Source of the DNA: a virus
Direction: 5' to 3' (one strand)
DNA: 21,966 bases
IMG/VR virus record: IMGVR_UViG_3300017782_000259
Location: 1 to 21,966 of that record
Below the pieces are notes generated by a model. It worked only from the letters and a program-made list of their open reading frames with translations, had not been told where the DNA came from and did no database searches. A program made the position numbers and the translations under genes. This document shows, one piece after another, positions 694 through 16,885 of this stretch. Numbering within the stretch: the stretch's first letter is position 1; every line of letters begins with the position of its first letter.

Positions 694-2637
694 TCATGCT
701 GCAGTCAAGTCTACTACTTCACACACTCCTGCCGAACAAGCTAACTCACGTCCACCTGATGTGTTATCTTCTTTCTCAAACTCAGGCAGTAAAGACCAGT
801 CAACTGTGTCTGGCATACGTGCAAACAACTCTGTGTACTTCTCCTTGTTGATATCTTGATATGGTGCTTGCTGATATGTATGCTCACTAAATGGTAAGAA
901 GCTAATGCCTGATACCTCATCAAAGTTTTCATACACCCATGAACCTACTTCCATCCACTCATGCTCTTTCACAGAGATAGTGACAGATGGTTTATGCTCA
1001 CACCAATGTCTCTGATATAGTAGCCATAAGTCTAGCTGTTCAATAGCTGTCATACCAGTACGTGTTACTGCACCAGAGGGTGACTGCATTGGAAAACTAA
1101 AAACTGTAGTGCTGTCAGGCTTCATTACGTCAGGCTCAGCAGGTATACCTTGTGCTACTAAGAACTGTGTTAGTGGGTCTTTATTATCACCACGAACAGT
1201 ACGCACATAGTATGGGTTGTGTCTAGCATGAATGCCTGATGCACTGTCAACTAATTGACTGACTGTACCACTAGGCTTAACGCAAGTTATAGCAGTAGAT
1301 TGATTAATACCTAACTGTTCAGCAAAGATAGCATTTGTTTCTACAGCTACTGACTTTAACTCTTCTAGTAATGCACTGATGTTCATACCATATGTTGCAC
1401 TCTGCCCTGCCAGTATCTGATTATCCATGATACCAGTAAGGGACACACCAAGTAGTCTCTCTTCCTGCGTATTTCTTTTCCATACATCTCTTAGATATTT
1501 AAAATCTGTCATTGTAGACTGAAACGTACCTAATATAGTCGCAATACGTACCTTTTTACGTAGCGATTCCATATTGTCTGATGCACGTGCTACTACCTCT
1601 GACAAGTTACAAAACTGGTATGGGCGTAAGATAATTTCACTACATGGATTACATCCAAATGCGTAATCAGTATCGCGTCTACCATTCTTAGCGGCTTGTT
1701 TAATAGCTGATGCACGATTAAATATGCCACGCTCACCTGACTTGCTCTCATACAAGGACACCCACTCACGCATGAATGTACCCATCTGTGGCTTCTCTTT
1801 GTAGGCAACAGAGTTATTAGCTAACGCACGTTGTCCTTCATTCTCCCACCACTGACCTGACTTAGCGTGTGCCATCTGGTCATCATTAAGATTAGACAAT
1901 GAAATCAATGCACTACGTCTAACCCCACCTACGACTACAACCTCTCCTATCTTACACATAATATCGTGACATTCAATAGGATATAGCCTACGTCCTGATG
2001 CACCCTTGAACTTCTCAATGCAGAAGTTAAACAACTCTATCAAAGGTTGTGGTCCTGATGCCCTACCACCAAATGTCTTTAACCTTGCACCTGCTTGACG
2101 CACTTTAGATACATCCCACTGTGGTATCTGACCTGCATATAACATAGCAATCAACTCACGTAATGCTTTAGACCACCCGGGTCTGCTGTCACCAACCTTA
2201 ATTACTGTGTCGCTGTACTCAAAGTGTTCATTAACTATAGGCAACTTGTCTACAGCGTTACGCTCCACAGAGAAGCCTACACCTGTGCCACACATTAAGA
2301 TGTACATTGTCTCATCAAATGCTCTAGGACTGTCTACAGGTACGTAAGAACAGTTGTATCCACCTACGTGGCATCTATCTAAGGCAGGTCCTGATGTCAT
2401 CAATGCCCTCATGCTTGGCATTACTCTTTGCTCAAGCACTGCTTCCTCTAACTCATTACGTAATGAATCAGATAATTCAAAGTTACACGTTTCTTTGAGA
2501 TGGTTTGTCATGTAGTCAAAGTATCTTGCTACTGTTTCTCCCCATGTCTCACGTCTTTGCTCATCTTCTTTCCATCTAGCGTAGCGAGATAGAGCAATAA
2601 AGTTTTGGTAGTCTGTTGGTAAGTAATTGCTTATCAT
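694..2637 (-). CDS. nrdJ: Adenosylcobalamin-dependent (class II) ribonucleoside-triphosphate reductase, monomeric type
   Basis: This 647-residue enzyme reduces ribonucleotides to deoxyribonucleotides for phage DNA synthesis, using coenzyme B12 to create a thiyl radical. All key residues are visible. Cys332 in NPCSE is the thiyl position, with Glu334 as general base. Cys96 (YNCSY) and Cys343 (QFCNL) form the active-site redox pair. A C-terminal C-x4-C (CSAGVC, 634-639) is the redox shuttle. The 332/334/343 spacing equals 408/410/419 of the Lactobacillus leichmannii enzyme. The size and single-chain layout fit the monomeric RTPR subgroup. The ATG overlaps the preceding gene by four bases and follows GGAGAACAATAC. 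The enzyme needs cobalamin from the host, which restricts plausible hosts. Confidence 0.95.
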   Translation of the reverse strand: MISNYLPTDYQNFIALSRYARWKEDEQRRETWGETVARYFDYMTNHLKETCNFELSDSLRNELEEAVLEQRVMPSMRALMTSGPALDRCHVGGYNCSYVPVDSPRAFDETMYILMCGTGVGFSVERNAVDKLPIVNEHFEYSDTVIKVGDSRPGWSKALRELIAMLYAGQIPQWDVSKVRQAGARLKTFGGRASGPQPLIELFNFCIEKFKGASGRRLYPIECHDIMCKIGEVVVVGGVRRSALISLSNLNDDQMAHAKSGQWWENEGQRALANNSVAYKEKPQMGTFMREWVSLYESKSGERGIFNRASAIKQAAKNGRRDTDYAFGCNPCSEIILRPYQFCNLSEVVARASDNMESLRKKVRIATILGTFQSTMTDFKYLRDVWKRNTQEERLLGVSLTGIMDNQILAGQSATYGMNISALLEELKSVAVETNAIFAEQLGINQSTAITCVKPSGTVSQLVDSASGIHARHNPYYVRTVRGDNKDPLTQFLVAQGIPAEPDVMKPDSTTVFSFPMQSPSGAVTRTGMTAIEQLDLWLLYQRHWCEHKPSVTISVKEHEWMEVGSWVYENFDEVSGISFLPFSEHTYQQAPYQDINKEKYTELFARMPDTVDWSLLPEFEKEDNTSGGRELACSAGVCEVVDLTAA

Positions 2638-15365: not shown

Positions 15366-15584
15366 TTAACTAACTGCTCTAATTACTTCTCTCATACCGT
15401 CAAGATATGCTTTCATCTCACGTGCGGATATCCTATGTTGGATTATATGACTTCCCTTTTGCGTTGTTAATTGCCAACCACCATAGCATGATGCATAGTT
15501 TAAGTCGTACTTGTCTACCCATGCTGGTATCCATTGATTAACCTTGTCAAGTGATTTATATAATTGTGTTTTAGTTACTCTCAT
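15366..15584 (-). CDS. 72-residue phage protein, unknown function
   Basis: The product starts MRVTKTQLYKSLDKVNQWIP, has an aromatic centre (YDLNYASCYGGWQLTTQKGS) and ends RISAREMKAYLDGMREVIRAVS. The 'YGGW.L....G......S.RE...YL.G' arrangement is shared by small conserved proteins in many phages; no function is known. Its ATG overlaps the preceding gene by 14 bases. Confidence 0.78.
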   Translation of the reverse strand: MRVTKTQLYKSLDKVNQWIPAWVDKYDLNYASCYGGWQLTTQKGSHIIQHRISAREMKAYLDGMREVIRAVS

Positions 15585-15741
15585 TTTTTAATCCCTCAAT
15601 AATTTCTTCTGCACTAATCCTAGTCAATACTTTATATGTTTCTAGTGATTGCTCAACCATTGTTTCATCCCTATGGTCAAACTTACCATGCCATATCTTG
15701 AATATTATGTCTATATCTTTTCTAGTTAATTGAGTTTTCAT
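15571..15741 (-). CDS. First gene of left cluster, 56-residue protein
   Basis: The product starts MKTQLTRKDIDIIFKIWHGK, has a helical middle (DETMVEQSLETYKVLT) and ends AEEIIEGLKNESN. AAGGTGATAAAA precedes the ATG, a good ribosome site. It is acidic and soluble, and I do not recognise a family. It is the promoter-proximal gene of the leftward unit, downstream of the near-palindrome at 15768-15783 and the candidate structured leader, so it could be an early host-takeover protein. Confidence 0.68.
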   Translation of the reverse strand: MKTQLTRKDIDIIFKIWHGKFDHRDETMVEQSLETYKVLTRISAEEIIEGLKNESN

Positions 15742-15767
15742 TTTTATCACCTTTTTATTTATCTTCT

Positions 15768-15783
15768 ATAGGATATACCCTAT
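15768..15783. promoter_or_regulatory. Near-perfect 16-base palindrome, possible operator
   Basis: ATAGGATATACCCTAT matches its reverse complement at 14 of 16 positions. It lies 26 bases upstream of the first left-cluster start, where a repressor or activator site would be expected. A related half (ATAGGATATA) occurs on the minus strand before the integrase. Confidence 0.45.
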
Positions 15784-15836
15784 CATAAGCATATACCCAA
15801 CACAAGATAAAAACAAGGGATTTGTGCATGGCATAC

Positions 15837-16045
15837 TCTAAAATAATTTAGATACACTCCGCCCTTGTCCAAGCAAACTATTGTTATCTCTGACTAAGTT
15901 TGCACCTTTTACAGCGTCCACCGTTATACAGCCACCTATTGTATTAGGACTTTCCAGACTGTCTATCAGGTTACATAATTGTAACACCTTGATAACTTTG
16001 TTTAGATACCATATCCCACATGGCTTAATAACTGGCAGTCTAATC
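15837..16045 (-). ncRNA. Candidate structured RNA or leader of left cluster
   Basis: The stretch is richer in G+C than its surroundings and has several complementary segments: TCTAAA/TTTAGA (15837-15852), GCAAAC/GTTTGC (15873-15878 with 15898-15903), GTTACA/TGTAAC extended by TATCA/TGATA (15964-15994) and a long-range AGACTG/CAGTCT (15956-15961 with 16036-16041). On the minus strand it would be part of the 5' leader of the left cluster. I compared it by memory with tmRNA, RNase P, 6S and group I introns and found no convincing match. Strand and function are uncertain. Confidence 0.35.
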
Positions 16046-16168
16046 TACCTTTGAGTGCTGGTTTTGGTCATTCTTTATTAGCGCATCAACACCTAATCGC
16101 ATTTATTATAAGTTAGTCTTTTAAAATATTCTGGTTTTGAAAATTCCTTTTTTCGTTTTGTTGGTTTT

Positions 16169-16200
16169 ATTATAGTCATTTATTATTTTGTTTTAGTCAA
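16169..16200 (-). promoter_or_regulatory. Possible leftward promoter with long spacer
   Basis: On the minus strand TTGACT and a consensus TATAAT are separated by 20 bases. Both hexamers are good but the spacing is longer than the preferred 17, so function is doubtful. It would drive the left cluster through a leader of about 420 bases. Confidence 0.35.
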
Positions 16201-16476
16201 GTATTATTTTTTATTCGGTATTCATATTTTATAAACTAATTACTTTATTTAAACTATTGAATAATGAAAGTTGCCGTAGCGATTATCAGATATTCGTTAA
16301 ATGTTTCTGTTAGTCATACTTAAGAATAGCATTAAATAAAAAAGATAATCAAGAAATAATTAAATTCTTTTCACATTGTGGAAAGTGTATTGTTAAGTTA
16401 TTGAATTTAAAAGAATCTTTTTTTATTTGGTGGTGTTATTTGTTGGAATTGTTTTTCTGCATTATATAGTATCGAT

Positions 16477-16616
16477 AAAAAACCGGGAATTGTTAGTATC
16501 GACTAACATTTTATGGGGTAGTATATATTTATTAGTCGTGGGGTACTATGTTTCAATAGTGTAACTATATGCACCGACTATAATATTTCATGTCTAATCT
16601 AAAAAACCGGGGAATT
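16477..16616. repeat. Repeat-rich block with paired direct and inverted repeats
   Basis: AAAAAACCGGGAATT (16477-16491) and a near copy with one extra G (16601-16616) bracket the block. Inside are a hairpin TGTTAG/CTAACA (16491-16508), direct repeats GGGGTAGTAT and GGGGTACTAT (16515-16524, 16540-16549) and an inverted pair TAGTCG/CGACTA (16533-16538, 16575-16580). This density of small repeats suits protein-binding sites, for example an origin, an integrase arm region or operators. Confidence 0.55.
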
Positions 16617-16757
16617 AATGCACCAAATACTAGCGTCAAGTGATGAATTATCTCTTAACCCCAGCCAATAACCCAATAAATTCAATAGCTTACGGGCTAA
16701 GTGCTTGATATCGCACCAATTATACGGCAACGGGCATGAGCCACCCCCCGTACCCAC

Positions 16758-16769
16758 GTATACGTATAC
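16758..16769. promoter_or_regulatory. Perfect 12-bp palindrome
   Basis: GTATACGTATAC is fully self-complementary. It lies upstream of the rightward promoter and may be a dimeric repressor or nuclease-sensitive site; no direct evidence. Confidence 0.4.
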
Positions 16770-16816
16770 AGAGAAATACACAGATTAGGTAAATTAAGTG
16801 TTAACCACAAAGGTAA

Positions 16817-16827
16817 GTGACACTATA
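16817..16827 (+). promoter_or_regulatory. SP6-like phage RNA polymerase promoter core (candidate)
   Basis: GTGACACTATA is identical to the 11-base core of the SP6 RNA polymerase promoter and points toward the right cluster. The next base is T, whereas SP6 starts with G, and the upstream ATTTAG part is not conserved. No single-subunit RNA polymerase gene is in the window. Confidence 0.25.
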
Positions 16828-16885
16828 TACATAGGGTAGGTCAAATTTCTGACACACAATATATGCAACTAATGCATTTTAGGGA

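Follow-up and report, generated by a model that had tools for sequence, protein, structure and literature searches.

The divergent gap of an HMO-2011-type virus record almost certainly encodes a structured RNA. As judged from the sequences compared, this RNA is made of a constant 3′ hairpin and of a 5′ domain which comes in at least three exchangeable types. The analysis covers record IMGVR_UViG_3300017782_000259 over its whole 21,966 bases, hereafter called the window. A preliminary description of the interval 15837-16045 had proposed a new structured RNA there. Covariation in relatives and the match of an independent 5′-domain model support this proposal, with the RNA now assigned to the minus strand, enlarged and modular (Table 1). 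The local stems and the long-range complement noticed at the time are real and correspond to helices P2 to P6 and to the ACAAGGG/CCCTTGT helix closing at 15868/15813. The interval itself was too short at both ends, since helix P1 (16093-16054) lies beyond one of them and positions 15820-15813, which form the 3′ arm of the terminal hairpin, beyond the other.

Table 1. Features of the leader RNA and its surroundings in the window
Feature	Coordinates	Strand	Details
Structured leader RNA core, type A 5′ domain	15812..16104	minus	293 nt, from 5′ motif AAATGCGA to the end of the 3′ hairpin
Helix P1	16054..16093	minus	GGTGTTG 16093-16087 with CAGCACT 16060-16054; loop with conserved TGCGC
Helix P2	16034..16049	minus	GGTAG/CTGCC
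Helix P3	16008..16024	minus	GCCAT/ATGGT; 5/5 pairs with double changes in 8 sequences, hand-chosen strands
Helix P4	15968..15990	minus	GTTAC/GTAAC, after conserved CAAGGTG; by hand, and by rule in 6/8
Helix P5	15930..15951	minus	AGTCCTA..TAGGTGGCT; compatible change in L146; two sequences inspected
Helix P6	15873..15903	minus	GCAAAC/GTTTGC; weak, L146 loses one pair
Constant 3′ hairpin	15813..15868	minus	ACAAGGG/CCCTTGT, purine internal loop GGA/AAA, GTGTA/TGCAC, variable tip stem, 3′ bulge GTATGCCA
U5 run after hairpin	15809..15813	minus	Terminator-like in window clade only
Second hairpin	15771..15798	minus	GGGTATAT/GTATATCC, between leader and ribosome-binding site; pairing by eye
Promoter-like site	16169..16200	minus	TTGACT-N20-TATAAT (or TTGACT-N17-GACTAT); kept in L146, L151, L130, L129, L157, L141
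First gene of leftward cluster	15571..15741	minus	ATG at 15741

Genomic setting

The DNA polymerase of the window is 62.9% identical to its HMO-2011 counterpart. Leftward genes occupy the part below 15750 and rightward genes the part above 17028, and the structured RNA lies in the gap between these divergent clusters. The GC content of 15837-16045 is 37.8%. The interval had been called a GC-rich island, which is correct relative to its flanks (25.8% over 16046-16600, 32.6% over 15751-15836) but not relative to the window as a whole (36.1%).

A separate stretch of noncoding DNA in the same gap, 16730-16832, has blastn matches of at least 75% identity in 48 of the 127 other loci first fetched (L001-L127), including HMO-2011 (window 16767-16832) and CRP-345 (window 16757-16809). 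Its conservation is broader than that of the leader RNA. Could it be a promoter or an origin of the rightward arm?

Folding energy, coding potential and known RNA families

Folding energies are ordinary for the region 15800-16070 (z −1.05 on the minus and −1.14 on the plus strand), for the window transcript (−0.2) and for the window 5′ domain (about 0). The 5′ domain does not fold below shuffles in L146 and L151 either, and does so slightly in L141 (z −1.5), for which the full-length value is −2.6. Folding energy was rejected as support for structure since neither the whole nor the 5′ domain (window, L146, L151) is significant. The 3′ hairpin alone is unusually stable, with z −2.9 in the window and −3.7 to −5.1 in three relatives. 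Because single-sequence folding is indecisive, relatives are needed and the proof has to be comparative.

The one longer open reading frame in the region encodes 57 residues from a TTG start and lies on the plus strand (15881-16054). It is still open in L146, which differs from the window at nine positions distributed 5/2/2 over codon positions 1, 2 and 3, altering 7 of the 57 residues. This lack of a third-position excess, together with the residue changes, is the reverse of protein conservation; nothing therefore suggests a kept protein, and a coding explanation was rejected. In the L151 clade the same stretch is replaced by other sequence. On this light test the interval is unlikely to be coding, in agreement with the initial view that no frame fits.

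The initial view that no known RNA family fits also holds. None of the 4227 models of Rfam 15 matches the window at gathering score. Under relaxed thresholds, the window gap together with 12 carrier or related loci gave five weak matches in total, none near gathering score: four in the window gap, at chance level and far below that threshold, and one in L028 (2508-2589), outside the leader. The riboswitch families of Rfam 15 do not match the leader in either kind of scan.

The constant 3′ hairpin

The hairpin was modelled from 16 sequences including the window (model R1), whose own members, such as the window at 15869-15812, match by construction. In the alignment of 16 distinct sequences (A4), 12 of the 20 pairs are changed on both sides. 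Paired cells amount to 93.2%, versus 76.1% in shuffles, and the covariation score of 0.448 (shuffled 0.159, sd 0.019) is reached by none of 500 shuffles; structures slid along the same alignment score 0.036-0.105. With no structure supplied, RNAalifold arrives at this fold with 19 pairs, of which 11 have double changes.

The constant features comprise the internal loop RGA/AAA, the helix GUGUA/URCAC and the bulge GUAUGCCA. In A4 the 16 bases of the search pattern GTATGCCATRCACAAA are invariant by construction, so that the pattern fixes the 3′ side of these features, and the constancy of the GUAUGCCA bulge is partly a product of selection because the bulge belonged to this pattern. The 5′ side, RGAGUGUA (RGAGTGTA in DNA), is constant though unselected, and helices 1 and 3 were likewise unselected. 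L028, which was found without the 16-base pattern, departs from it.

Read as minus-strand RNA, the hairpin alignment contains 36 G-U cells versus 5 A-C cells, an excess that assigns the RNA to the minus strand. This count also bears on a DNA-level element, a replication origin or a protein-binding site, whose inverted repeats would mimic RNA stems. The cumulative GC skew does reach its minimum at about 16.0-16.2 kb; however, this turn coincides with the divergent gene orientation too. The excess of G-U cells favours RNA from one strand, and the conservation extends to bulges, internal loops and helices. We regard a DNA-level element as extremely improbable.

The 5′ domain and its types

The type A core measures 264-304 nt across eight members. 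A rule-based search finds helix P1 in all eight, always 7 bp long and at one anchor (single-sequence p 0.009-0.30), with strands as varied as GGTGTTG/CAGCACT in the window, GGCAATG/CATTGCC in L200 and CCACAAT/ATTGTGG in L205. With strands placed by hand, P1 pairs in 56 of 56 cells and carries double changes at 7 of 7 pairs. The corresponding cells are 36/40 for P2, 40/40 for P3 and 32/32 for P4, the strands of all three being hand-picked with repeats included. When whole 3′ strands were re-dealt, the values of P1, P2, P3 and P4 were reached in 2, 36, 3 and 2 of 5000 shuffles. The comparison of the window with L146 provides the double change GGTAG/CTGCC to GGTGG/CCGCC in P2. Where P4 was placed by rule, shuffles were mostly non-significant singly. 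The MAFFT alignments A6 and A7 were unused for these counts because they misaligned the diverged type A members.

An independent line of evidence comes from model R2 (24 pairs), which describes the 5′ domain from L182, L220 and L200 only, the window being left out. Among 23 sources it matches the window at 16104-15959 (E 1.4e-13), L146 (3e-15), L216 (1.2e-7) and, weakly, L028 (0.16). It misses L205, although that locus has the same type A motifs. Double changes beyond the shuffled controls, which separate structured RNA from chance folding, occur in the hairpin and in the 5′ helices alike. Such compensatory changes in relatives were the check named by the preliminary description. Rapid divergence without conservation, which it named as grounds for refutation, did not occur, yet 15875-16129 is replaced in the L151 clade.

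R2 does not match the eight type B loci (L151, L129, L141, L204, L180, L184, L190, L194) or three type C carriers (L178, L187, L195), and types B and C are therefore different or very diverged domains. The outer helix of type B pairs in 56 of 56 cells over seven rows, which hold four distinct strand pairs, and 43 of 5000 shuffles are as good; the strands of this helix (B5) were also hand-picked with repeats included. L178/L197, L187 and L195 carry type C. All typing relies on short motifs: L180 is assigned to B by one motif, L205 has one stray B motif and L008 is untyped.

Across the leader, L004 (the L146 contig) is 90% identical to the window. In L003 (the L151 contig) a different, shorter sequence takes the place of window 15875-16129, flanked on each side by DNA that is 86-89% identical to the window. 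From the sequences, these are two versions in one slot.

Carriers in two phage groups

Carriers were sought in IMG/VR by pattern scans and by neighbour-gene searches, the latter giving 45 loci plus the best 80 of 597. A scan for the 16-base piece of the hairpin 3′ side (GTATGCCATRCACAAA) returned 48 loci, 23 of which have the full hairpin by R1; rescanning the other 25 with R1 gave none below E 0.01. Of 34 new loci from a relaxed pattern one was real (L220), and L028 was added from an earlier locus set by R1. In total, the hairpin is carried by 25 contigs including the window; one contig holds both L200 and L215, which brings the number of loci to 26.

Both HMO-2011-like and T7-like phages are represented. 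In HMO-2011-like carriers whose loci extend far enough, the RNA is followed on its own strand by replication genes, and an r73 homologue is encoded on the other strand at a distance of 1.1-1.3 kb. In the T7-like carriers (L200/L215, L204 and L182) terminase lies on the far side, so that the RNA sits between terminase and the early genes. One L215 protein matches annotated terminases of Autographiviridae, and, to judge from their translations, L215 and L204 each have genes for a primase-helicase and for an RNA polymerase of the single-subunit kind. The contig of L200 and L215, IMGVR_UViG_2802429358_000003, contains the leader hairpin twice, 40,985 bases apart and near the contig ends; it is therefore likely a terminally redundant assembly of a genome of about 41 kb.

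Outside these carriers the RNA was sought in several collections. R1 gives no convincing copy in 18 related named phage records, which cover both groups and include three fosmid clones (best W02, E 0.57), and two exact-pattern scans of bacterial and archaeal genome contigs gave no match. In blastn searches against phage records, the window gap yields, inside the leader, only weak matches to unrelated records (E 0.03-0.5); the same range, again to unrelated records, was obtained with the leaders of the window, L151, L154, L157 (plus downstream gene), L008, L007, L184 and L195. Scans with the promoter pattern and with CTTGGACAAGGG returned known members and chance matches only.

Several candidates were rejected as carriers. 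L008 has the type B core CCAAAGACACTATAAGTGCGCC, but R1 does not match it. The weak R1 match in L009 (6148-6192, downstream of a w199 homologue; E 0.05, or 0.0015 in its own record alone) was not counted; G020 and G021 have further weak matches (E 0.15-0.24). L005/L154 shares the motif GGTGAAGTGTGTCTAAA, yet R1 finds no hairpin in its contig. This related motif (L154:1287-1303) occupies the same place after a small ORF and perhaps marks a further leader type. Elsewhere, L052 has a strongly folded insertion of 146 nt between early genes (1425-1570, minus strand; z −5.89) which is absent at the same place in L076 and is possibly another structured RNA.

Putative promoter and transcript, and position before the early genes

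The distance from the hairpin end to the first leftward or early start codon was measured in 19 carriers. It is 30-76 nt in 18 of them and 121 nt in L190, where the first longer ORF begins at +184. This spacing is the reason for favouring a leader among the options initially named, a leader, a ribozyme or an independent RNA; a ribozyme is unsupported. In the window the RNA is placed directly between the promoter-like site and the first leftward gene, and homologues in HMO-2011-like phages occupy the equivalent position. To judge from the promoter-like site, the leader transcript of the window likely extends from about 16162 to 15806. The site was not listed by a consensus promoter scan with spacers of 16-18 only. 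By eye, TTGAC boxes precede the leader in other carriers as well. A spacing of about 20 nt, versus the usual 17, between TTGAC[AT] and TATAAT-like hexamers was noticed by eye in the window (16169-16200) and in the leaders of L216, L182 and L200.

The hairpin that follows the leader in the window (15771-15798) shows wobble-type changes in L129 and L141. T7-like carriers have, by eye, another hairpin in its place, for example AGGTGCAATGGTGCGCCT in L182.

The genes downstream, grouped into families by eye, are not bound to one domain type. MKTQLTRKD and MAxxRN..ITIVK genes each follow types A and B, MSVENIL genes follow B and C, and MS(N)YNLxGVGxNAKT genes follow A, B and C. With at least two types in each of these four families, the 5′ domain is untied to the next gene, and this shuffling argues for an operon-wide over a gene-specific role.

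The same shuffling speaks against an attenuator or riboswitch, in which the 5′ domain would sense a ligand, a protein or the host state and the hairpin would then terminate transcription or hide the ribosome-binding site of the first gene. The aptamer of a riboswitch is linked to the genes of one pathway, unlike the arrangement found here, and no known riboswitch family matches in the Rfam scans. In the window clade the order leader, hairpin, U5 run, gene does fit an attenuator. However, a run of at least five T follows the hairpin in just 7 of the 26 carrier loci, so that a terminator or attenuator signature of hairpin and U run is not family-wide. Between the hairpin 3′ arm and the ribosome-binding site, L184, L187, L194, L195 and L205 can form up to 8 bp, a value equalled in 9-24 of 500 shuffles, but the pairing of the remaining 14 of the 19 carriers is equalled in over 25 of 500. 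A switch through this pairing is therefore unsupported in general, and we consider an attenuator or riboswitch unlikely.

Another reading is an independent non-coding RNA acting in trans, transcribed from its own promoter, ended by the hairpin and aimed at a host process or defence, with the swappable 5′ domains as specificity parts. Its own promoter-like site, the terminator-like end in the window clade and the swapped middle between flanks of 86-89% identity (L003/L151 versus the window) agree with such a molecule. The 19 of 26 carrier loci without a T run do not, and neither does the position closely ahead of the first early gene (18 of 19), which makes a trans-acting RNA distinctly unlikely.

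The 5′ position in a presumed early mRNA could also indicate an element which shields this mRNA from decay, offers an RNase III-like processing site or recruits ribosomes. A long base-paired hairpin and the further hairpins seen by eye before the first genes of T7-like carriers would suit this role. But protection and translation elements seldom require a constant loop sequence such as RGAGUGUA or exchangeable domains, and the idea seems very unlikely.

Possible mode of action

Position and modularity point tentatively to a cis-acting leader of the first transcript made by the host polymerase, perhaps similar in action to HK022 put RNA. The first early transcript, made by host RNA polymerase, would begin with this RNA as its 5′ leader, and the leader would fold while emerging and act in cis. 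The constant hairpin may then dock on the transcription (or translation) machinery, with the 5′ domain tuning or diversifying this contact. The outcome would be efficient expression of the early operon, as put RNA achieves by binding RNA polymerase. Against a put-like role, the leftward operon is not enriched in terminator-like structures (five found versus 5.8 expected, one of the five on the minus strand).

A bolder and rather doubtful proposal is that this is the earliest RNA made upon infection, that its constant 3′ module grips a conserved host machine, RNA polymerase or the ribosome, and that the 5′ module is swapped by recombination in the manner of tail tips, thereby matching hosts or evading defences.

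Relation to known systems

By position, HK022 put RNA is the nearest known system. The put RNA is described as contacting RNA polymerase and so suppressing, without a phage protein, the pausing and termination of early transcription; it has about 70 nt and two stem-loops, and putL, just downstream of an early promoter, exerts its effect on terminators 10 kb or more away (PMC9378689). Like put RNA, the present RNA is a structured phage RNA at the head of an early operon, and its position would fit that of put close behind an early promoter if the promoter-like site acts as one. In contrast to the RNA of HK022, a lambdoid phage of E. coli, it has a core of 293 nt, other helices and exchangeable 5′ domains, and occurs in marine phages. 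Given these differences in size and fold, we claim only that the leader may work like put.

Other structured RNAs offer looser parallels. EAR (Rfam epsC, RF01735), which is linked to readthrough, and JUMPstart (RF01707) are leaders of bacterial chromosomal operons. They resemble the present RNA in being operon leaders; neither is among the Rfam matches obtained here. GOLLD and ROOL are large structured RNAs of Rfam that also occur in phages. Both are much larger than the leader and absent from the matches. The RNAs manA and wcaG, known from marine metagenomes and phages, have been detected in T4-like cyanophages and are associated with metabolic genes (PMC2864571). They are structured marine phage RNAs as well, and again neither appears among the matches.

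A literature search covering mostly open-access journal papers found no report of this leader. A structured phage leader as such is of a known kind. What is new, as far as tested, is the architecture, in which two phage groups combine a constant hairpin with exchangeable domains.

A folded RNA of about 300 nt which heads the early operon, is shared with T7-like podoviruses and matches no Rfam family would be an unexplored device of early infection. Its modular 5′ domains are natural variants for the dissection of function, and the device is open to standard transcription and reporter assays. If the hairpin does grip a host machine, the leader would represent a takeover device made of RNA only, the RNA counterpart of the early takeover proteins of phages, common to two groups of marine phages.
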